Shown: positions 9,112 to 33,556 of the stretch, one piece after another
Numbering within the stretch: the first letter of the stretch is position 1
How the letters are laid out: each line of letters opens with the position of its first letter
Source: Methanomassiliicoccaceae archaeon
GTDB lineage: Archaea; Thermoplasmatota; Thermoplasmata; Methanomassiliicoccales; Methanomethylophilaceae
Length of the DNA: 33,704 nucleotides
Assembly (NCBI GenBank): GCA_009786295.1
Contig: WQTN01000143.1
Coordinates: 1-33,704 of the forward strand
Direction of reading: 5' to 3'
Made by a program: the position numbers and the translations under genes
The notes under the pieces: model-generated
What the model saw: the letters and a program-made list of their open reading frames with translations, nothing else
Databases searched by the model: none
Told to the model about the DNA's origin: nothing

Positions 9112-12100
9112 TTAATCGTCGATGTAGTCGTATCTCAGGCTTGCAAGCACCAGTGCCACTGTTGCAACCAGGAGCACCAACATCACCGCTGTCCATGAGT
9201 CATAAGCCACATATGTGCCGCCGAATCCCTCTGTAAGAAGGAATATCACGAACGAGATCACGGCTATGAGCACCGCTCCGAGCCTGAGGCCTTTGCCTGT
9301 ACCCGTTCCCTCATAATTCCTCTTGTAAGTGACCGTGAGCGCGATTATGCTTATCATGATGCACAAGACCATGAATACCAAGTTCAGTATTGCAAGGTTC
9401 CCTCCTCCCAATACGGTTGGTCCGGACTGGGTGTCGGTCTCTATGGGCGGAGACGGGCCGCCGCTTGCTGCCCTTACCACGATGGAATGGTCGCTGTTGA
9501 TATTACTGAAGGTATACGACGACAATCCGTCAGAGTTGATCTCCTTGCCATCGATCACCACCACAAGCTTATATCCCGTTTCTGCACGGAAGTCAAATGA
9601 GACCGTGTCTCCGCGCATGGCCTTGATCATTCCGGAGGGAGAGATACTCGTATGAGTGTCCGCGAAGGCAAACACTGCGTACTGCTCGACCGGGGTCGAA
9701 GACCACCTTGCCGTGAGCGCGGTGTCATTGTACAGCTTGTCGGTGAAGGACAGCCTTGTGCTGCCGGAATACCATCCTGCGAAGTACATTCCGCTGCGCA
9801 TAGGTTCGTTGGCGCCGATGGCGCCAAGCATTGTTCCAGACACGACATTGGAGAATGTCTGCAACAACGGGGTCCCTCCGTTTCCGTCAAAGGTCACGGT
9901 GATGAGGTCGACCTTCAGGAAGTCTCCGCTGTCCCTGATCCGGTATGTGGCCGGATTCAGCGGATTCAGCGGGCTGTACAGGTCGGCCCATCCGGCTATG
10001 CCCGACGGAGCCACAGTTCCGAGGTATGTTCCGGAATCTACGTACTGTGTGTTCACCAGAGTGCCGCCGTCATAGAACCTTACTCTCTCATTCCATGTGG
10101 CGAAGAGAGCGGCCGAGTCTGTGGCGCCTGCGAAGAGAGTGCTCAGGTCGGCTGTCGGCGACAGGTGCGTGCCTGTGAATGGGTCCAGCCATCCGTTGAA
10201 CACAGAGTACAGCGATGTCCAGCCGCCGAGGACGGAGGGGTCATACTTGTCTATGAACTTCTCTACCGTGACCGGTGCAGGAGCGCCTGTCCAATTTATT
10301 TCGACCTTTATCGCATTGCCTCCATAATCTCCGCTTGTTACGAGATTATAGGTAAAGCCGATGCTGCCCGGACCGACATCCTCATCCCACTGGAAAGAAG
10401 CAACAGGCGTCATCGATATGCTGTCGTAGAGTTTGATCTCCACTTGCCATTTCGCGGTGTACCAGGTCTCGCTTGTGGGTGTCACAAGGGCTCCGGCGCT
10501 GTTTTTGGCCGAACCGTCATACCATCCGGTGAACGTCAGCCTGCCTTTGGCCGGCTTTTCTGGAAGGTTGATGCTTTGTCCTTCAATGACCAGCATGTCG
10601 GGGATCGATGAAGGCGTTCCTCCGTTGGTGTTGAAATGCAGCACGAACCCATATCCGGCCGTCAGCATTATGTCGCCGACAAATTTGTCGGTCAGCTTAT
10701 AGAGGATATCCCCGCTTGCATAGTACCCGTCGACCGTCCCCAGTTCAACGAACCAAGAGATGAATGTCATTCCGCCCGGTGTGGGGTCCGTGAGGATGAG
10801 CTCTCTTAGAAGGGTGCCTTCCGGCATCAGGAAGAAATCATCGCGCGTATTGAGTATTCCATCTACGCCGGCATCCTGAGTTATTTTTCCGCTTACGTTA
10901 AGCCAGAGGCCGTCCGAGAGATACGCCGGCAGATCAAAGAAGCTGACTTTGACGAGCCATGTCGCCGTAAGCTTCATCGGTTTCAGAACAAGCAGGCCAG
11001 TTGGTTCTGCAGTTCCGTCCGCGTATCTGTCGTTCGGTGTGACAGAGAGGTCCCACCATCCGGTGAACGCTACTCCTGCCCTTGACGGTGCATCAGTGAA
11101 TCTGTCGCTGTGAGTACTGAACCTGCTCGGGAGAGGCTTTTCGACACGCAGATACTGCGGGGCTATCGTGACGCCCGGAGAGTATCCGGAGTCAAATTCC
11201 ACCAATACGACGAACTCGTAGTCCAAGGTCACGTCCTTTGTGATCTTTGATGAGGTACTGTCGCTGGGAACACTTGGGAGATAGAGGAAACCTGTCGTAT
11301 AGTACTGCGTTCCGAAGTCCTCATAGTCGTTAGGGTCAGAAATGCCTGTTCTGTCGTACCATCCGACGAAATTCCAATCGGTCTTTGCAACATACGGGTT
11401 GAGACTGTCGCTCGGCGATGAGATCAGATCTGAAAGTTTCGATCCCTCCAGAAGGTTCATCGAAATGCCGGTGAACAGGGGATTGGCAGACGTGCCTACA
11501 TTGAAGTCGACGACCGCATACCATTTTCCGTATAATGTCGTGTTCGTTGTGACTCCGCTCAGAATAGCCGGCGCCGTTGATAGGCCGCTTGCGGTAAGAG
11601 ACACCGCATCGCTTGCCTTATACCACTTCACATAATTGTTATGGAAGCCGGTTTTGGACAATGTCGGCGCAGTAACGGTGCCGAGGTCCGATACATCGAC
11701 TATGATGTAGCCGAAGGTGTCTGTGCCGATGGTCTCTGTACCGTGGGTCACCGTGCCGACCGGGTACGGGACTTCAAGATTCCCGGTGAAGTAGAACTTG
11801 ACCTCTACGCCCCATTTTGCCTTGAGCGTTATGGAGGACGTGACGTTGCCTGTATAGGCAATATCATTCGTCTGGTTCACATATTCTGTGCTGCCGACAA
11901 GCCATCCTTTGAACGTCTTGTCATTAGCGGCGTTATACGTAGGCAGAGGTACGATGAACTTGCCTGAGCCCGGAGGAGCATTTTCGAACGGCGAACCGTT
12001 AAATGGCGTGCCTTCGTCAACAGTTATCGTCGCCGGGGGCGCGGAAGATCCTCCGTTCATATCGAATGCCACATCCGCCAGCCATCGTATGTAGGCAACC

Positions 12101-15100
12101 GTGTCTGTAGTTATCGAGTCGCCCGGGGCCCACTCCGTAAGCAGGCCGCCGCTGATATAGTCGGGTACGACCCCTCCGTTCTTGTACCATACCGCATTAG
12201 GCTCTCCCGCAGCACTCGGTGTGCCGGTAGTCTTGTAGTACAATCCAGTTTTTGCCAGTGCGACGTATGAAGTGCCGTCGAAGAGGCTCGTGTTCAATCT
12301 GTCCAGCATATCCGCAAACGTATCGGTTGATGTATCGTACGGAACCATCACCATCGAGGGGGATCCTCCCATTATGTTGAATCTGAAAAGGTCCCTGAAC
12401 TCCGGCGTCAGTTCCACGCTGTATGTGTAGTAGATCGTAGGCGGGCCGTTCGTAAACCATTCGTACGGTGTGGAATTGGCGTCGAACCAAGAGGTCGGGT
12501 CGCTGCCGCTCAGCTTGATCTTCGGCATACCGGTGCCTGTCATTTCGAATGCCGTACCTTCCAGAACAAGGAAGTGATAGCTTCCGGGCACCCATGTTGA
12601 CATTGTCGTCTGATCGACGATCCCTGCTAAGCCGCCGTCGTCAAATGTTATCTCGAATCCCCATCCTGCGATGAGCTTGACGTTTTGGGTTACGGTCGTC
12701 AGATTATCATATTTCGTGTCCCCCGCGGCCGGCTTGTTTGTGCCGTCGTACACATACCAGCCGAGGAAATGCATCCTTACGAATTTCGCATCTTCTTTGT
12801 ATATAGGGCCGGTTGTCTGCGCATTCACCATTTCATTTTTTACAGTGTCGAAGATCGTATCCCCGAACAAAGTGTAAGTAGGAAGGGGGTGAGACACAGG
12901 GACAGCCATGGTGTAGGGCGATGCTGTTATCACGGCGCTTCCCATTACGGCGTCATTGAAGTAGAACTCCACATTGGCGGAATACAGGGCCATGAGTTTC
13001 ATATCTCCCTGCACAGGGGCATCCGCCTCAAATCTCTCTTTTGTAGGGTAGAGGTCCGGGTAGAATAGAATTTTGTTCGTCTTCGGCAGCACCAGATTCG
13101 CAACATGGCTTACCGTGATTCCGCCGTCGAGGACATACCATCCGTTGAAGTTCACATCGGAGGCCGTCGGAACCAAAGTCGACGGCAGAGCCGCAGTGTA
13201 ACCGCCGCCGCTCCATGTGCCCACGTTATGCTGGTAGGTGTACACCCCGCTTCCGGGCGAGGTCTCCGCCAGACCGCTCGCTGCCGCCATCGTGGCCGTG
13301 CCGTTGACCCCGTTGTCTGCGTAGAACGTGATCTCGGCATACCATCTCGCCTTGAGCGTAAGAGAGGTCACATTCGGCATAGCAACGAATGCCTTCAGGT
13401 ATGACAGGTCGCCCATCGGATCTGCCGCGTCATAAGCCGCATAGCATGTATCAGAGGGGTTTCCGTACCATCCGCCGAATGTCAGTCCTGTCTGGGACGG
13501 AGTGCCGGGGTAGTAAGAGGTTCCTTTGCCTGTGTTGGTGTTTGTGAGGGTGAATTTCGCTATGTAATAATAATCGAAACTGTCGTAGTCGTTGTTGGGT
13601 TCGACCAGATCGTCTCCGACGATCATTATCACGTTAGTCGAAGGATTGCCGTCGTTCGGATCAAAGGTCACGGTCACAGTTTTGGCAAAATATGCCACGA
13701 ACTTCATGCCGGACTGAAGCGACATCGGCCATTCTGCAACGCTGAGGGCCGGATTGACATACATCCTGTCTCTTACAGAGTATGTCCAAACGGGGTGGTC
13801 CTCATCCGTGGTATCGAGGATACCCCATCCGACGAACGCATATCCGGCGTTCGGCGTTGCTTTCAGGATCAGTCCGGTACCGTATGGGTAACTGGCCTCT
13901 TCAAATCCCTTCGTGCCCGTACTAAATCCGCTGTACAAGGGGATGGAAGGATCAAGAATAAGTTCGACCGAACCCCCGACGGGATTCGCCGCATCGACGG
14001 CAGGTACTATATCTGTATGTCCTGAGGTCAATCTGGTCTCAAGTTTGATCGTGTATTCTTTGCCTATGAACAGTGCGTACAGGTTGAGTATGCCCTGATC
14101 TGTGACAGGGTCGCGGTAGATCAGACTTTCATCAATGGTGAATCCGAAACGATCGACTGCCGTTATCTTATCATCGTTGGTAGTGTTTATGAACACTGCA
14201 GACCCATGTTTTGCATTGTCCGCAGTGTACCATCCTTTCAGACTGAATCTGACGAACTCCGGCCATTCCATGGTCTTCAGCTCTTCGCCAGCAAGATACG
14301 TCAGGCTTCCGTACAGAGTACGGTCGGACACCAAAATGCTGGAAGTGACCATCAGATCATCATAGTCGGGGTCCACGTCATTGAGGTCTCCGTCGCCGTC
14401 ATGGTCGCCGTTGGGGAAGGAATAGAAATCAATGATGTAATACTCTAAAATGAGTTCCCATGTGACGCCGTCGTTTTTATAGCAGGTACCTACCCTGGTG
14501 CCCGTACCGCTGATGTCAGGCATTATGTCTATCGGCGATGCTGAGGTGCCGTCCGCCTCCGGCCCGTATATGCCGGGTTTGACGGATTTCATGTGGAACG
14601 GCGGGGTCTTCTTGTTCTTGTTCTCTACGAACTGAAGGGTTCCTGTGGCCAGACCAGTAAAGTTCCTGATCTCTATCCGCCCCTGCCCATCAGGCAGAAG
14701 GTTTGAAATGTCAACAGGCCCTGTGTTATTTATTATCAGCAGGCCGGTCTTTTCGGAACCTCCGTATGTCCATTTCGCAACGTTGTTCCAACCGTTGAAT
14801 ATTGCCTCTGCCCCGCTCTTTGTGGCCGCATCCGAAGAGACCTGAAGGGCATACATTGTCGTCCCGGAGAAGGAATCCGGCTTGATCACCGTGTCGCCCC
14901 ATACTCCGATCACCAGGCTGTCAAAGGCCATTACCTGCAGATTGGAGAATGATTCGTTGCCGACAGTTGTCTTTTTAGGAAGATAAACTTTGGTGAGTCC
15001 GGTGTTTTTGAAGGCCGAGTTGCCGATAGTGAGTGAACCTCCGGTATCAAGGAATTCGAAATAGGACAGGGACCCGCATCCGAGGAATGCTCCGACACCG

Positions 15101-16374
15101 ATATAGCTCGCATTTGTGGCTGTGACGCCCAGGACACGGGTCTTTGTGAACGCATTGTCCGGTATTTCTTTTATCTCGTTGAGGTCCACCTCTATGGCGG
15201 GGCATCCGTCGAAAGCCGTGCTGTTCATCCTTTCAACCCCGTCTGCTACTGTGAATTTATTGTTGATAAGCTGAGTATCTATTCTGGACGGCACTTTGAT
15301 CAATATCAGATCTCCCCCGTCCAGCCCGTATAATGCACCGCGGACGCCCTTATCGCTGCTGTCCTCAGATATCAGAGATGAGTATTTGCCGTTAGAGGGG
15401 TTCACAACGAAGTATTTCAGTTCTGCGATGCCATCGAATGCGCCATCGCCGATATTGGTGACCATTCCCAGATCCGCTGAGTTCAGATTAGTGTGTTGGA
15501 ACGCATATTTCCCTATGGTGTACGGTGCTGTCAGAGGCAGAGCGATGTCGCTCAGCGCTCTTCCGGAGAATGCATAGGCGCCTATGCTCGTTACGTTTTC
15601 GACAGACAAAGAATATCTTGTCGCATCGTCTTTGCTTGTCTCATTGTTAAAATAAAATGCATAATCGCCAATCGTCACGGCTTTTGGTATACTGAGCGAA
15701 GTTTTTATCGTCGCTTTTGAGAATGCATAGTTGCCGATGCTTGTGCACTCGGGGAGAATGACCTTACTGAAATCTCTTGCAAGAGATGTGCCGGTCACAG
15801 CCCCGAACGCGCCTACGCCTATCGTCGTCACCTTTGGAAGTGAAAGTGTTGCTATTACTGGGATATCACCAGTGTATGGCGAGCCTCCGGACCAAGGCGA
15901 TATTGCAAAAGCAAAATCCCCGACCGTTATGAGCTCTTCTGCAGTTATTTCGGTGAGCGACAGGCAGTTGAAGAAGGAATAATTTCCTATTGCCGTCACA
16001 TTTTTGAGATCAAGCGACTTAAGGGCTGTGCAATCCCTGAATGCAGAATTCCCGATCTTTACTACATTGTTACCCATTATGACCTCTTTCATGAGCTCAT
16101 TAGGATAGAAAGCCAGGTCGGCAATGGCCGTTACAGGATAAACATCGGTACCGCCGATCACTATCTCATTCGGGATTGTTACCTTGTCTGCATTGGCGTT
16201 ATAGCTTATCAGCGTGGCTTCTTTTATGGCCGCGGAAGGGTCGTATTCGAATGTGAAGTCGCCTATTGTTATTGTTGTAGGTGCCGCGCTTGAATCGTCG
16301 TCGGATACAAGCACGAATGCTCCAGCTGTCATCAGGATGACCAAAACAGCTGCCGCTAGTACATTTTTTTTCAT
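9112..16374 (-). CDS. Giant secreted adhesin-like protein: signal peptide, BspA-type leucine-rich repeats, about 13 InlB/Listeria-Bacteroides-type repeats, three predicted C-terminal TM helices
   Basis: 2420 aa; MKKNVLAAAVLVILMTAGAFVLVSDDDSSAAP signal; LRR_5-like repeats (e.g. VVKIGNSAFRDCTALKSLDL, TAIGNYSFFNCLSLTEI); many 'FxGWY' repeats; hydrophobic segments ILNLVFMVLCIMISIIALTV, LGAVLIAVISFVIFLL, AVMLVLLVATVALVLASL. Confidence 0.9.
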   Translation of the reverse strand: MKKNVLAAAVLVILMTAGAFVLVSDDDSSAAPTTITIGDFTFEYDPSAAIKEATLISYNANADKVTIPNEIVIGGTDVYPVTAIADLAFYPNELMKEVIMGNNVVKIGNSAFRDCTALKSLDLKNVTAIGNYSFFNCLSLTEITAEELITVGDFAFAISPWSGGSPYTGDIPVIATLSLPKVTTIGVGAFGAVTGTSLARDFSKVILPECTSIGNYAFSKATIKTSLSIPKAVTIGDYAFYFNNETSKDDATRYSLSVENVTSIGAYAFSGRALSDIALPLTAPYTIGKYAFQHTNLNSADLGMVTNIGDGAFDGIAELKYFVVNPSNGKYSSLISEDSSDKGVRGALYGLDGGDLILIKVPSRIDTQLINNKFTVADGVERMNSTAFDGCPAIEVDLNEIKEIPDNAFTKTRVLGVTATNASYIGVGAFLGCGSLSYFEFLDTGGSLTIGNSAFKNTGLTKVYLPKKTTVGNESFSNLQVMAFDSLVIGVWGDTVIKPDSFSGTTMYALQVSSDAATKSGAEAIFNGWNNVAKWTYGGSEKTGLLIINNTGPVDISNLLPDGQGRIEIRNFTGLATGTLQFVENKNKKTPPFHMKSVKPGIYGPEADGTSASPIDIMPDISGTGTRVGTCYKNDGVTWELILEYYIIDFYSFPNGDHDGDGDLNDVDPDYDDLMVTSSILVSDRTLYGSLTYLAGEELKTMEWPEFVRFSLKGWYTADNAKHGSAVFINTTNDDKITAVDRFGFTIDESLIYRDPVTDQGILNLYALFIGKEYTIKLETRLTSGHTDIVPAVDAANPVGGSVELILDPSIPLYSGFSTGTKGFEEASYPYGTGLILKATPNAGYAFVGWGILDTTDEDHPVWTYSVRDRMYVNPALSVAEWPMSLQSGMKFVAYFAKTVTVTFDPNDGNPSTNVIMIVGDDLVEPNNDYDSFDYYYIAKFTLTNTNTGKGTSYYPGTPSQTGLTFGGWYGNPSDTCYAAYDAADPMGDLSYLKAFVAMPNVTSLTLKARWYAEITFYADNGVNGTATMAAASGLAETSPGSGVYTYQHNVGTWSGGGYTAALPSTLVPTASDVNFNGWYVLDGGITVSHVANLVLPKTNKILFYPDLYPTKERFEADAPVQGDMKLMALYSANVEFYFNDAVMGSAVITASPYTMAVPVSHPLPTYTLFGDTIFDTVKNEMVNAQTTGPIYKEDAKFVRMHFLGWYVYDGTNKPAAGDTKYDNLTTVTQNVKLIAGWGFEITFDDGGLAGIVDQTTMSTWVPGSYHFLVLEGTAFEMTGTGMPKIKLSGSDPTSWFDANSTPYEWFTNGPPTIYYTYSVELTPEFRDLFRFNIMGGSPSMVMVPYDTSTDTFADMLDRLNTSLFDGTSYVALAKTGLYYKTTGTPSAAGEPNAVWYKNGGVVPDYISGGLLTEWAPGDSITTDTVAYIRWLADVAFDMNGGSSAPPATITVDEGTPFNGSPFENAPPGSGKFIVPLPTYNAANDKTFKGWLVGSTEYVNQTNDIAYTGNVTSSITLKAKWGVEVKFYFTGNLEVPYPVGTVTHGTETIGTDTFGYIIVDVSDLGTVTAPTLSKTGFHNNYVKWYKASDAVSLTASGLSTAPAILSGVTTNTTLYGKWYAVVDFNVGTSANPLFTGISMNLLEGSKLSDLISSPSDSLNPYVAKTDWNFVGWYDRTGISDPNDYEDFGTQYYTTGFLYLPSVPSDSTSSKITKDVTLDYEFVVLVEFDSGYSPGVTIAPQYLRVEKPLPSRFSTHSDRFTDAPSRAGVAFTGWWDLSVTPNDRYADGTAEPTGLLVLKPMKLTATWLVKVSFFDLPAYLSDGLWLNVSGKITQDAGVDGILNTRDDFFLMPEGTLLRELILTDPTPGGMTFISWFVELGTVDGYYASGDILYKLTDKFVGDIMLTAGYGFVLHFNTNGGTPSSIPDMLVIEGQSINLPEKPAKGRLTFTGWYDGSAKNSAGALVTPTSETWYTAKWQVEIKLYDSISMTPVASFQWDEDVGPGSIGFTYNLVTSGDYGGNAIKVEINWTGAPAPVTVEKFIDKYDPSVLGGWTSLYSVFNGWLDPFTGTHLSPTADLSTLFAGATDSAALFATWNERVRFYDGGTLVNTQYVDSGTYLGTVAPSGIAGWADLYSPLNPLNPATYRIRDSGDFLKVDLITVTFDGNGGTPLLQTFSNVVSGTMLGAIGANEPMRSGMYFAGWYSGSTRLSFTDKLYNDTALTARWSSTPVEQYAVFAFADTHTSISPSGMIKAMRGDTVSFDFRAETGYKLVVVIDGKEINSDGLSSYTFSNINSDHSIVVRAASGGPSPPIETDTQSGPTVLGGGNLAILNLVFMVLCIMISIIALTVTYKRNYEGTGTGKGLRLGAVLIAVISFVIFLLTEGFGGTYVAYDSWTAVMLVLLVATVALVLASLRYDYIDD

Positions 16375-17157: not shown

Positions 17158-17691
17158 ATGCATGTTTTTTATCCGCAATGCCCATTACCATGCATGGACT
17201 GTGTGAAAGAAGGATTCATCGGGTTGCCGTCGCAGGAGAGGGTAGCGATGCTTCTTCTCAGGCACGGGATAAGGGTGGAGAACGGCACAGCCTACTGCAA
17301 CGATATAGAGCAATCGGATGCGGCGATAGCAAGGGCGGCGGGCGTAGACCGGAGGGTGGTAAGATCGGCGCTCGACAGGATATCAGCGGTTCCGGAATTG
17401 GACAAGGTGTTCTCGAAACTGCAGTCGATGCTGCTGCTCGCAGATGTCGCGCCGAGGATAGGCTGCACCACTGTGGAGATAATCCCCACGGATGCAACGA
17501 TGCCGGGAATATTGGCAGGAGTGATGGACATCGTCTACAGAGGCGGCCTCTCCGTGAGGCAGGCAGTGGTGGACGATCCGGGGGTGAGGACAGACTCTCA
17601 CCTGATAATAGTGGTCGACGGGCAGATCCCTCCCGAGCTGCTGCCGATGATAAAACAAAGCAGGGGCGTCCTGAGCGTCATACTCCGATGA
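17158..17691 (+). CDS. COG2150-like regulator of amino acid metabolism with C-terminal ACT domain
   Basis: 177 aa; HTH-like SDAAIARAAGVDRRVVRSALDRI followed by an ACT-like region. Start uncertain: the ATG at 17194 (MDCVKEGF) is an alternative. Confidence 0.7.
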   Translation: MHVFYPQCPLPCMDCVKEGFIGLPSQERVAMLLLRHGIRVENGTAYCNDIEQSDAAIARAAGVDRRVVRSALDRISAVPELDKVFSKLQSMLLLADVAPRIGCTTVEIIPTDATMPGILAGVMDIVYRGGLSVRQAVVDDPGVRTDSHLIIVVDGQIPPELLPMIKQSRGVLSVILR

Positions 17692-17819
17692 AGGCATCGG
17701 AAGCTGGCCTCTATGGAGAAAAGAGAAAAGATATGCTATCTTTCATTTAACCCAGAATATACGCGCGCAGATACCTAATTTTGGAGTAATATTATATATC
17801 CCTACACGTATCAGTAACT

Positions 17820-18064
17820 CGTGCATATGTGCTGACGCATATATGGACAGCCTTTCGCAGCCTGCGAAGAACGTGCCCGTACACCATGCGGAGTACGGAC
17901 GGGCAAACCAAAGGTAAGGGATGGAAAAACTGAGGGATGCGGGATGAACATATGTTCTATTCCGCCGAATCGGTGTCATCACTTTCCTGTGAATGCCCGC
18001 CGCTCGTTTTTCGACGGGCATGCTTGAGAGGCAGGAAATACAACTCAATAGAGGATGATTCCAA
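17820..18064 (+). promoter_or_regulatory. Long structured 5' leader of the 1155-aa surface protein gene
   Basis: TATA-like ATTATATATCC at about 17791. Hairpins TTCGCA-gcc-TGCGAA (17854-17868), TGCCCGT...ACGGGCA (17874-17905), ATGCCCG...CGGGCAT (17993-18021); palindrome GAACATATGTTC (17946-17957); three mini-ORFs. Confidence 0.55.
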
Positions 18065-21000
18065 ATGAGAAAAGAAATGAAAAAAAACAATAAGATGGTC
18101 TTAGCCCTTGTTGTAGTTGCCGCCCTGGCGATGGTATCCATAGCGGGTATCGCGCTGAGCGACGACAGTGCTGCTGCTAAAATTAGCAACAACATTCTGA
18201 TACAACCCGGCGAGACATCTGCAGTAGATTATGACTTCTACGTGATAGAAGACAATCTGAGCACACCGATTAGCTTTGTGTTCAAAGTAGGCGAGGGAGG
18301 CAGCTACACTGGAACAGTCCAGCTCGGCACCCTGACAGCTGACGAAAAGACATACACCTCATACGGCGCATTGAAAATGGCCGGTGCAGGTGCAGTCCTG
18401 ATAACCGCTACTATGGAAAAAACAGACAGCGGTATCATCGCGTTCTTCACGATCAGCAACCTCAACAAGGACTTCGGCGGAGCAACGCCTGCCGGAACCT
18501 ATGAGTTGACAAAGGGACAGATAAAGCTGGGCTACTACGACGGTACCAACGGCGCATCCTTCTGCGGCAAGATCAAAGTAGGCGGTTTCACGGCAACAGC
18601 TAACTACGTTGCAGGTACGATCCTTGCGCTTGACTCAAAAGGAAAAGCAAGGATCTCCGGCGTGGCGGCATCTCCAGTGGAGATCCTGCCCAGCACCAAC
18701 GTTAGCTCCGATGATTTCAACGTACTTGACAGCGGTAAATATTACCCCAAGTACGACAGCCGTACGCTGGTCCTTGAGGGAGAGGCAACCATACAGTTCC
18801 CTGAGTCCTACCAGAAACTTCTGGATGACAACATGGGCGCCATCGTTGCTGACCTATTGCCTCCCGCCGTCCTTGTAGGTGTTCTGGAACACTTCATGGA
18901 TGCCCCGTTGGCGCCGCTGGTGCCTCCCATACTGCCTCTGGCAGGGATAAACCCTGGAACCTCGTTTGACATATTCGCCACCGACTCGGTCTATGTGACC
19001 GTAGAGGCAGGCGCAGTCATATCGGCAGGCGGATCGGAGAGACCGGCAACAGTGTCGGAGACTATAACCATCGAGACAGAAGCGGCCACGGCCTTTAGCG
19101 AAGCGTTCCTTGTGAGCAGCGATGGAAAAGTATACTCGGCATCGATAGTCGCAGGTCTGATAACATTTGAGTATGTGCCTTTCGGAACATACACGTTCGT
19201 CGCATATGACGGCACACAGATGTGGTACAGCACCGGCGCGAGAGTGTCCGCGACAAGTTTCACGCTGGGATCCGCGCTGAAAACATCGGCAGCGGCAGCC
19301 ACACCGACCATCGGCCTGTATGATGACGGCACCACTCCTCCATACAACGTATGGGGCTTCTTGTCGAGCACGTACTCAGTCGACTTTGCTCTGGATGTCA
19401 CTAACGATAAAGTACTGACCACAAAGGTCATTAAAGTGGACATCGGAGGCTCGGATGTGAACCTTATAGTGCTCATGGACGGGAACACCATAGTGCCCGT
19501 CGGCGGCACTGTAGATGTCGTCGTCATAGGCAGCGAAAGGATCCTCGGAAACCCTCAGAGGTACTTCCAAGGAACAGTTGACGACCCGGTTATACCAACC
19601 ACCATAACCACAGTGGTTAAAGCAAAGACGGGCTCAGCAGCTCTTGCAGTCGACGAGATAAGGGCAAAAGATTCCGATTCGGCAGGAGCCATCGCAGCAT
19701 ACATAGTTCTCGATGATCAGAAGATGCTCGTGAAAGGCGAGATGAACTTCATCTACTCGTCCAGTACCGTGTATGGAATGATGGCCATCGACAGCCGCGA
19801 CCCCTATGTTACCTTCGAGGGAGAGGGTATCATTTCTCACGGTGTAACGCCTGTAGTGACATATTCAGATGTCCCGGCCTTCCCGCTTGAAATGGCATCC
19901 GAAAACATGGTTGCAGCATACTATTATGTCAATGCACCCGCGACCGGAACAGTTACAAACTCAACATACTACTTCACATCACTCGCAAACGCAATAAAGA
20001 AAAGCAACGAAATAACGCTTATGGGAAAGCATGTCATACTTGTAGACACGACCCTCGATAACTCTGAGTTCAGCAGTATAACAATATACATCGGCACAGA
20101 CGCATCGCTGGAAGTCGGAAGACTCGATGACCCTGCAACCACAGAAGACGAGAGCGCAAACCCGAAGCTGACAGTACCGGCAAAGACAAAGATAATTGTC
20201 ACCGCTGGTGCAGACCACTACTCGGTCGTCAGCGGACAGGCCATATACGACGTTAAGCCCGCTGCAAGCGACGAGCCCGAGGCTGACATCCTGATCGAAG
20301 GTGCCAAGTACATCTACACCGATCTCGCAACAGCACTGGATATCTCGGTCAGCGGCGATGAGCTCAACCTCCGCCAGCCTGCAACCCTCAACAGGGATGC
20401 AACACTCAAGGCAGGCGTTAAGCTTGACGACAAGGGCTATGCAATCACCATACCGGAAGATGTTACAATGACCGTCAACGGGGATTTCAAATCCACGGGC
20501 AACATGGCAATCAATGGTACCATCAGGATCAACGGAAAGGCCAACTTCACCGGCGGTGGAACGGCGACCTTCGGTCCCAACGGAGCCATTGACATAATGT
20601 CTGCAGGTGTGCTCACCGTCGACACCTCCACAATAGTTGGAACCGTCAACAACGGTGCGATCACCGTCTCTGGTGAACTGGTTGCCAAGAACGGCGCGAC
20701 CATCTCTGCAAAGGTAATATCTGTCTCAGGCAAAGTCTCGGTTACTTCTTCAACTGTCACAGCCTTAAAAGAACTGTGGATAGGCGTAAAGCCTGTTCTG
20801 TCGCCTCTGTCTGAGGCATACACAAACACAGCTGTCATCAATGGTGCAATAACACTTGATCCGGCCGCTGCGGCATACGTGTATGGCAACTTCACAGTAG
20901 GCACGAAGATCATCCCGGCAGGGTTTGTAAAGACAGAGTACTTCATAGAGGACAACCTCTACATTACTCTGTACGCTGCAGCCTCACCCGGTGTGCTCCT

Positions 21001-21532
21001 TCCGATGCTCTATGAGGATCAGTTGAAAGACATCAAGATAAAAGAGTGGAGCACCGACAAGTATGGCAGAAATGAAGCAACCACCTTCCTCAGCCTGAAC
21101 CCCACCAAAGTCATTGGCGAGGCAGGATGGGAGAAACTCTACTGCGGTCTCGGCTGGGGCTATGAATGGGTAAAGTACAAGATCACATGTGAGACCTACC
21201 TTGGTGTAACATGGACGGTCAACGGACAAACCTATGTCGGCCCATACGTTGAGATCGAATACGGAAAGACTGTAGCCGCGAAAGCACTCGTTCAGCCCGG
21301 ATACGAAGGAACACCTGTCATCACTGCAAACGGTGGCGCCTACACAGCAGGCACTGCCATGAAAGTGACATCGGATGTCAACTTCGCGTTGAAAGACGGT
21401 AGCGTAGTCTTGGCCAGCGATAAGAAAGATGACGACGGCGGACTCACTCTCATTGAGATCCTGTTGATCATCATCGTGATAATAATCGCCGTAATAGCGA
21501 TAATCATCGCGATAAGGCTGCTGAGGTCCTGA
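18065..21532 (+). CDS. Secreted, C-terminally membrane-anchored surface/adhesin-like protein
   Basis: 1155 aa; signal-like MKKNNKMVLALVVVAALAMVSIAGIALSDDSAAAK; beta-rich repetitive body; C-terminal TM ILLIIIVIIIAVIAIIIAI plus RLLRS tail. SD-like GAGG upstream. Confidence 0.88.
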   Translation: MRKEMKKNNKMVLALVVVAALAMVSIAGIALSDDSAAAKISNNILIQPGETSAVDYDFYVIEDNLSTPISFVFKVGEGGSYTGTVQLGTLTADEKTYTSYGALKMAGAGAVLITATMEKTDSGIIAFFTISNLNKDFGGATPAGTYELTKGQIKLGYYDGTNGASFCGKIKVGGFTATANYVAGTILALDSKGKARISGVAASPVEILPSTNVSSDDFNVLDSGKYYPKYDSRTLVLEGEATIQFPESYQKLLDDNMGAIVADLLPPAVLVGVLEHFMDAPLAPLVPPILPLAGINPGTSFDIFATDSVYVTVEAGAVISAGGSERPATVSETITIETEAATAFSEAFLVSSDGKVYSASIVAGLITFEYVPFGTYTFVAYDGTQMWYSTGARVSATSFTLGSALKTSAAAATPTIGLYDDGTTPPYNVWGFLSSTYSVDFALDVTNDKVLTTKVIKVDIGGSDVNLIVLMDGNTIVPVGGTVDVVVIGSERILGNPQRYFQGTVDDPVIPTTITTVVKAKTGSAALAVDEIRAKDSDSAGAIAAYIVLDDQKMLVKGEMNFIYSSSTVYGMMAIDSRDPYVTFEGEGIISHGVTPVVTYSDVPAFPLEMASENMVAAYYYVNAPATGTVTNSTYYFTSLANAIKKSNEITLMGKHVILVDTTLDNSEFSSITIYIGTDASLEVGRLDDPATTEDESANPKLTVPAKTKIIVTAGADHYSVVSGQAIYDVKPAASDEPEADILIEGAKYIYTDLATALDISVSGDELNLRQPATLNRDATLKAGVKLDDKGYAITIPEDVTMTVNGDFKSTGNMAINGTIRINGKANFTGGGTATFGPNGAIDIMSAGVLTVDTSTIVGTVNNGAITVSGELVAKNGATISAKVISVSGKVSVTSSTVTALKELWIGVKPVLSPLSEAYTNTAVINGAITLDPAAAAYVYGNFTVGTKIIPAGFVKTEYFIEDNLYITLYAAASPGVLLPMLYEDQLKDIKIKEWSTDKYGRNEATTFLSLNPTKVIGEAGWEKLYCGLGWGYEWVKYKITCETYLGVTWTVNGQTYVGPYVEIEYGKTVAAKALVQPGYEGTPVITANGGAYTAGTAMKVTSDVNFALKDGSVVLASDKKDDDGGLTLIEILLIIIVIIIAVIAIIIAIRLLRS

Positions 21533-32236: not shown

Positions 32237-33556
32237 TCATTTAGCCTTGGATTTATTGTTCCCTATTATGAGGGCGGCAAGACCCAGTATAACTATGACG
32301 GTCAGCACGCCGATCACTACCAGGAGCATGGGCACTTTGCTTTTGGCCGGTTCCAGATAATGGTTGGAGGTAGTGAAGGTAGCATCATCGGTCACTGTCA
32401 AAGTATCTCCGCGCTTGAACGGTTTGCCGTCCTTGAAGATATCAGGCACGTCTGTGTGTCCCCGTGCCGGGGTTACGGTGATGACGTATTTTGCCTCATA
32501 TGCGGCATACTCCGACCATGAGCTCCCTCTTTCTATCCCGTTTATTTTCCATATGATGTTTTCATCCTTTGCAAAGGACAGCCTATACGAGATCTTCTCG
32601 GCATCTCCTAAAACGTCAGTGCTTCCGATCTGTATGTTGGAGCTCTCAGTCACTATGTTTCCGGACTCGTCTCTCCAATCTGTAAGCCGCCAGTCCTTAA
32701 GGCTCGTCGTGACAGGGAAGACCAAGGTCTTTTTTCCTGTTTTATCTTTGTATTCGGTAGCATATTCTGTACCGGCAATTGCGAATTTAGTCTGAACAGC
32801 GGGGTATTTTATGTTCGCGGGACCGAAGTTGGCTTTTCCGTAGACAAGTATGCATCCTGCATTGTCAATTGTGATCATCCCGGTTATCTTGGCGTTGTTG
32901 GTCGATTCGGTCAAATATTCAGGAGCACGCCCGATATTCAGGATATCAGTGACCCTGAAGATGCTCCCTCCGTATATCTGGAGCTCGCCTGTAACGGTTC
33001 CGTTCCTGATATTAGCTACAGAATTCAATGTCCCGTGGCCGACGGTCATCACTCCGTCGACCGACAGCTTTCCTCCTCCGAGGCATTCTAAAATACTCTC
33101 TTTGTTGGAGCCAAAATTGAATATTCCTCCACTGAGCACTTCCAAAGAACCTGCGACAACGACTTCGGCAGTGTTCTTGTTATTATCCATTGTCATCAGT
33201 CCGCCGGATGATACAACGATAGAGCCCCTGGATTCCACCAACAGGTCCCCTGAGGAAACCAATGTTCCCTTAACATCCAGCACTGTTACCGCCGGGATTG
33301 TCAATGAAAATCCGTTGTCATCCAACGTGACTCCAGGTTTTATTGTTGCGTTTCTGAAGAGAATAGTGTCTCCGTTCAGTATTATCTCGTCCCCGCTGAC
33401 GGCTTCATCAAGAGCCAGCGCAAGATCGAACGAACCGCTGCCTACCAGAAGAACATCATCTGCCTTTGCAGAATCATCGCTGAAAGATACGACTGCAAGC
33501 ATCCCTATCAATGCTACGAGAGCGGCCGAAACCAGCAAACTCCTTCTTCTGTGCAT
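32237..33556 (-). CDS. Secreted, C-terminally anchored surface protein paralogous to the C-terminal half of the 1155-aa protein
   Basis: 439 aa; signal-like RRRSLLVSAALVALIGMLAVVSFSDDSAKAD; C-terminal TM MLLVVIGVLTVIVILGLAALII plus basic tail. SD GGGAGG; TATA-like TTTTATATCC at about 33586-33597. Confidence 0.85.
   Translation of the reverse strand: MHRRRSLLVSAALVALIGMLAVVSFSDDSAKADDVLLVGSGSFDLALALDEAVSGDEIILNGDTILFRNATIKPGVTLDDNGFSLTIPAVTVLDVKGTLVSSGDLLVESRGSIVVSSGGLMTMDNNKNTAEVVVAGSLEVLSGGIFNFGSNKESILECLGGGKLSVDGVMTVGHGTLNSVANIRNGTVTGELQIYGGSIFRVTDILNIGRAPEYLTESTNNAKITGMITIDNAGCILVYGKANFGPANIKYPAVQTKFAIAGTEYATEYKDKTGKKTLVFPVTTSLKDWRLTDWRDESGNIVTESSNIQIGSTDVLGDAEKISYRLSFAKDENIIWKINGIERGSSWSEYAAYEAKYVITVTPARGHTDVPDIFKDGKPFKRGDTLTVTDDATFTTSNHYLEPAKSKVPMLLVVIGVLTVIVILGLAALIIGNNKSKAK

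Follow-up and report, generated by a model that had tools for sequence, protein, structure and literature searches.

A conserved structured leader, probably acting in cis, precedes a surface-protein gene in the archaeal genus Methanoplasma

To our knowledge, few cis-regulatory RNAs are known from archaea. Translational riboswitches offer one comparison for the leader described here (positions 17,821-18,064, + strand): in both, a structured upstream domain is followed by a hairpin around the Shine-Dalgarno (SD) sequence, which in those riboswitches is the sequestering expression platform. Unlike them, this leader falls into no Rfam class at E values up to 5 and is tied to a single surface-protein gene. 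RNA thermometers likewise have a hairpin over the SD beside the start codon. Strong primary-sequence conservation is unusual among thermometers, and we rejected this class for the window leader, in which the predicted SD pairing is nearly constant from 15 to 45 °C. The long 5′ UTRs of Methanolobus psychrophilus (PMC5378194) are also methanogen leaders of more than 150 nucleotides with predicted stem-loops that mask ribosome-binding sites. There, however, start sites are selected by temperature and many genes are involved, whereas the RNA described here belongs to one gene and is kept across a genus.

The window, by which we mean the whole 33,704-nucleotide stretch of DNA that was analyzed (contig WQTN01000143.1), comes from a genome that comparison of the leader DNA with related genomes places in Methanoplasma, a genus of methanogens from termite guts; the genus is assigned from these relatives. 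Arthropod guts are the sole habitat of Methanoplasma (PMC10684969). We read positions 17,821-18,064 as the 5′ leader on the mRNA of a surface protein, a structured RNA that is conserved in this genus, specific to it and most likely a cis-acting control of expression, and put the probability of this reading at about 0.62. Our best reading of this leader, which is large, genus-wide, absent from Rfam and linked to one gene of insect-gut methanogens, is a new archaeal cis-acting RNA that controls the translation or mRNA stability of a surface protein. As a group of natural variants, the Methanoplasma leaders are also ready for probing, and they would test clearly whether an archaeal surface protein is controlled at the RNA level.

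The leader sits between the promoter and the start codon of a single gene, and this position is kept in relatives, where the order of TrpY-like gene, TATA box, leader and surface protein is invariant. Directly upstream in every case is a gene for a TrpY-family-like transcription regulator (17,158-17,691, +; 177 amino acids), whose product matches NCBIfam NF053754 with an E value of 2.6e-42, yet reaches 144.6 bits against a cutoff of 180; the leader-adjoining copies in relatives are 66-91% identical. The TATA box, TATTATATA (17,790-17,798, +), starts 29-32 nucleotides before the first hairpin, P1, in all 11 leaders with assembled and aligned upstream DNA. Together with archaeal promoter spacing, its position suggests that transcription probably starts at about 17,818-17,822, at the base of P1. 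Because the start and length of the leader are derived from this constant spacing, their basis is the TATA box rather than a mapped start; the estimate agrees with the leader of about 245 nucleotides that an earlier note on this DNA had predicted. Upstream of the TATA box, alignment revealed a G+C-rich element, acgcgcgcag (17,762-17,771, +), which is recognizable in most relatives and may be an operator for the adjacent TrpY-like regulator.

Nine other Methanoplasma genomes match the leader DNA at about 70-86% identity. A scan with a covariance model built on the 5′ part of the leader (116 positions, 23 pairs) found it in 11 of 17 Methanoplasma genomes, always as a single copy, although the lone copy in G005 is apparently divided between two overlapping contig ends. 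A twelfth genome, G011, carries a diverged leader that gave no significant match to the model, but in which the order of 5′ hairpin, rod and ribosome-binding-site hairpin is the same (folding z -4.8). The TrpY-like upstream gene occurs in exactly these 12 genomes and in G012, whose contig stops at this gene; the other four of the 17 lack the gene, and the leader is absent from the same four. Assemblies break inside the leader or just past the TrpY-like gene in three cases (G005:C82/C44, G006:C95 and G012:C50), which suggests strain variation or assembly trouble. Matches to the core pattern came from genomes named Candidatus Methanoplasma (M. reticulitermitis and M. glyptotermitis), Candidatus Methanoplasma sp. 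or Methanomassiliicoccaceae archaeon.

Outside Methanoplasma, chance-level matches were all that came from searching 102 genomes at family level and 147 at order level. The model's weak matches in other genera, at E 0.001-0.03 per genome in the set of 147 genomes, are about as expected by chance and were rejected as leaders; the most suggestive of them, in G063, has a near-identical CGGAAUCCGAAGCGAAGGGAUGGAAAAA but lacks P2 and P4. In that genome, a near match to the purine core lies beside a P1-like hairpin at L117:2065-2137, antisense and ahead of a transporter-like gene, with a chance-level score. Loci found by pattern in unrelated organisms gave no significant match to the covariance model (best E 0.26), and a search of phage and viral contigs found no leader. 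In the window's own genome, short chance matches were the only trace of a second copy. No Rfam 15 family matched the window at its gathering score, and none matched positions 17,690-18,120 at E values up to 5.

The evolution of the leader is that of a folded RNA encoded on the + strand, whose structure is conserved beyond what phylogeny accounts for. Positions 17,820-18,070 fold at -107.5 kcal/mol compared to -72.7 ± 4.8 kcal/mol for 200 dinucleotide shuffles, none of which was as good (z -7.2), and the folding z of the ten leaders compared ranges from -2.4 to -7.7. A consensus fold, computed by RNAalifold with RIBOSUM scoring on a MAFFT alignment made from sequence only, reached -89.7, compared to -48.5 ± 5.8 (best -63.9) for 100 simulations that kept the tree and the substitutions (z -7.1) and to -40.2 ± 4.5 for column shuffles (z -11); since the absolute consensus value contains scoring bonuses, it is meaningful as a comparison only. 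The reverse-complement consensus fold was -66.3, and in every species this strand was 13-41 kcal/mol worse than the + strand. The earlier note's description of a long, heavily structured leader is borne out by these data, in the window and in the related genomes. Its suggestion to look for covariation among homologues gave a divided answer: the consensus fold lends the structure strong support in aggregate, whereas ten sequences are too few to make any one pair convincing by itself, and the exchange of arms discussed below is not conserved. Per-pair covariation is weak because there are only about ten independent leaders; the best covarying pair had an E value of 0.05, on a structure-guided hand alignment, and with default RNAalifold settings the covariation term was only -1.5 kcal/mol and 7 of 41 pairs were doubly changed. 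We also considered a coding stretch, since an open frame spans the leader in the window, but indels break this frame in relatives, and each relative differs from the window by some indels whose lengths are not multiples of three; the leader is therefore not coding.

At the predicted start of the transcript, the conserved fold has a 5′ cap hairpin, P1 (17,821-17,848), in which 5 of 12 pairs show double-sided changes with pairing kept among 11 leaders. A long-range closing stem, P2, joins GCCUUUC (17,850-17,856) to GAGAGGC (18,026-18,032); it is paired in 95% of relatives' cells, belongs to the best fold in nine of ten species and is within 1.1 kcal/mol of it in the tenth. Inside lies the hairpin P4 (CCGUA/UGCGG, 17,877-17,891), paired in 100% of cells, with both-sided changes at two pairs. 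The purine core AAACCAAAGGUAAGGGAUGGAAAAA (17,905-17,929) is conserved even at bases predicted to be unpaired: AAGGGAUGGAAAA is near-invariant, and the AAGGGAUG half is paired, in other species too, to a pyrimidine strand that varies. P6 (17,939-17,965), which holds the palindrome GAACATATGTTC, is variable in sequence, with pairing kept in most species and compensatory changes among relatives. Last comes the ribosome-binding-site hairpin, GGAA...UUCC (18,034-18,062), with the SD GAGGAUGAU (18,051-18,059) inside it. Its inner stem is CUC/GAG, UCC/GGA or GCCC/GGGC depending on the species, and its predicted energy ranges from -5.7 to -7.6 kcal/mol where the hairpin is short and from -24 to -29 kcal/mol (lowest -28.9) where it is long. 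In species with the long hairpin, the SD is predicted to lie half open within an internal loop; SD sequestration would therefore not be uniform across species.

These features suggest how the leader might act. Transcription would begin at the base of P1, and the RNA would close as a long rod of P2, then P4, P5 and P6, leaving a small terminal hairpin to hold the SD a few bases ahead of the start codon. This hairpin may gate the start of translation, and the upstream domain could tune how easily it opens or could shield the mRNA at its 5′ end, with recognition of the conserved core by a protein or small molecule as a possible trigger. A more specific version, which we regard as tentative, is a sensing class of leader whose core would sense a regulatory protein or a metabolite of the gut and thereby open or close the ribosome-binding-site hairpin on the mRNA of a major surface protein. 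If so, host-associated methanogens would control their cell surface at the RNA level.

The earlier note had proposed something different, a two-state switch in which TGCCCG and CGGGCA arms are interchangeable. Its motifs are all where it had placed them: 5′ arms TGCCCGT (17,874-17,880) and ATGCCCG (17,993-17,999), 3′ arms ACGGGCA (17,899-17,905) and CGGGCAT (18,015-18,021), the competing register CCGTAC (17,877-17,882) with GTACGG (17,893-17,898), the hairpin TTCGCA-gcc-TGCGAA (17,854-17,868) and the palindrome at 17,946-17,957; and the four arm pairings, of 6-7 bp, all exist in the window. Comparison with relatives nevertheless largely refutes this switch, to which we give very little credence. 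The four pairings keep 49-78% of relatives' cells, where the median for window helices of 5-7 bp is about 60%, and the exchange is mostly species-specific. The first 5′ arm with the first 3′ arm keeps 75% but costs 10-24 kcal/mol relative to the best fold in all ten species (11.5 in the window); the second with the second keeps 49% and costs 14.7 kcal/mol in the window. Neither of these local arm hairpins comes near the best fold. The first 5′ arm with the second 3′ arm keeps 56% and, in G007, G013, G004 and G002, belongs to the best fold or comes close to it, and the second 5′ arm with the first 3′ arm keeps 78% and lies fully within the best fold in the window alone; pairings of the second 3′ arm thus keep only 49-56%. 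Nor need the long-range folds exclude each other: one of the two long-range arm pairings is nested within the other, so both can form together. The conserved helices, P1, P2, P4 and the ribosome-binding-site hairpin, are ones that the earlier note did not name. Still less probable is an element that acts as DNA, for example a site of recombination or a promoter segment that can invert. Part of the region does lie between inverted repeats, and several assemblies break in or near it, but the orientation to both neighbors is identical in all relatives and the fold is strand-biased, which a DNA element does not need.

Among the alternatives to our best reading, we rank a pure stabilizer above a ligand switch, and this above a separate small RNA. 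The stabilizer, itself unlikely, would have the cap hairpin and rod guard the mRNA of a supposedly highly expressed surface protein against 5′-end nucleases, with no switching. The position of P1, which in every species coincides with the predicted first nucleotides, fits this idea, and P2, in or at most 1.1 kcal/mol from the best fold in 10 of 10 species, means that one fold dominates; there is also a precedent in a cold-adapted methanogen, whose methanol-pathway genes have long mRNA-stabilizing leaders according to work cited in PMC5378194. Mere protection leaves unexplained, however, why the predicted-unpaired GGAAAA core and the hairpin around the ribosome-binding site are conserved. A new archaeal class of riboswitch, whose core would bind a small molecule and so alter access to the ribosome-binding site, is a doubtful proposition, and two pairings are the best remaining candidates for its route. 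One is the hairpin UUCGCA-gcc-UGCGAA (17,854-17,868), which is paired in 91% of cells (its outer half is broken in G015) and excludes P2. Forming it instead of P2 is predicted to cost 0.8-2.1 kcal/mol in G007, G001, G013, G004 and G002, so that two exclusive helices, both more than 90% conserved, are near-equal in energy in five species; the remaining five, among them the window, show a gap of 5.5-13.7 kcal/mol. The other is UGGAA (17,922-17,926) with UUCCA (18,059-18,063), whose complementarity is kept in 98% of cells. In each alternative, both partners hardly vary, and covariation therefore lends neither any support. It also counts against a ligand that one gene per genome is involved and that no metabolic gene follows; typical riboswitch regulons differ in this. 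Finally, a separate small RNA gene that has a promoter of its own and stands ahead of the surface-protein gene by chance would account for the conserved TATA box and the compact fold, but is improbable because conservation runs unbroken into the ribosome-binding-site hairpin and the start codon, and a surface-protein start follows the leader wherever the contig continues.

The gene that we take the leader to control in cis (18,065-21,532, +) encodes a predicted surface protein of 1155 amino acids, whose predicted features are a signal peptide, a body rich in beta structure and a membrane helix at the C-terminus. It matched no Pfam or NCBIfam family, and a PDB structure search found no confident relative (best E 0.08). 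Homologues follow the leader in other Methanoplasma genomes, where the first 150 residues of the protein are about 28-55% identical in contrast to the 70-84% of the leader DNA. In G004 (L053:1271-8000), two inverted copies of the surface-protein gene share 72% DNA identity and flank a transposase-like gene and the TrpY-like gene, the former IS110-like in appearance by eye. Promoter and leader are present on one copy only, and the homology of the copies starts near the start codon. As the second copy has no leader, the leader would belong to the expressed locus and not to the coding family, and the two could possibly be an expressed and a silent copy. On the - strand of the window, positions 9,112-16,374 adjoin the locus and encode a protein of 2420 amino acids with weak matches to FILTED surface and leucine-rich-repeat adhesin models. 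Also on this strand, a 439-amino-acid protein (32,237-33,556) is about 29% identical to the C-terminal region of the surface protein (residues 736-1148), and similar copies are present in most Methanoplasma genomes.
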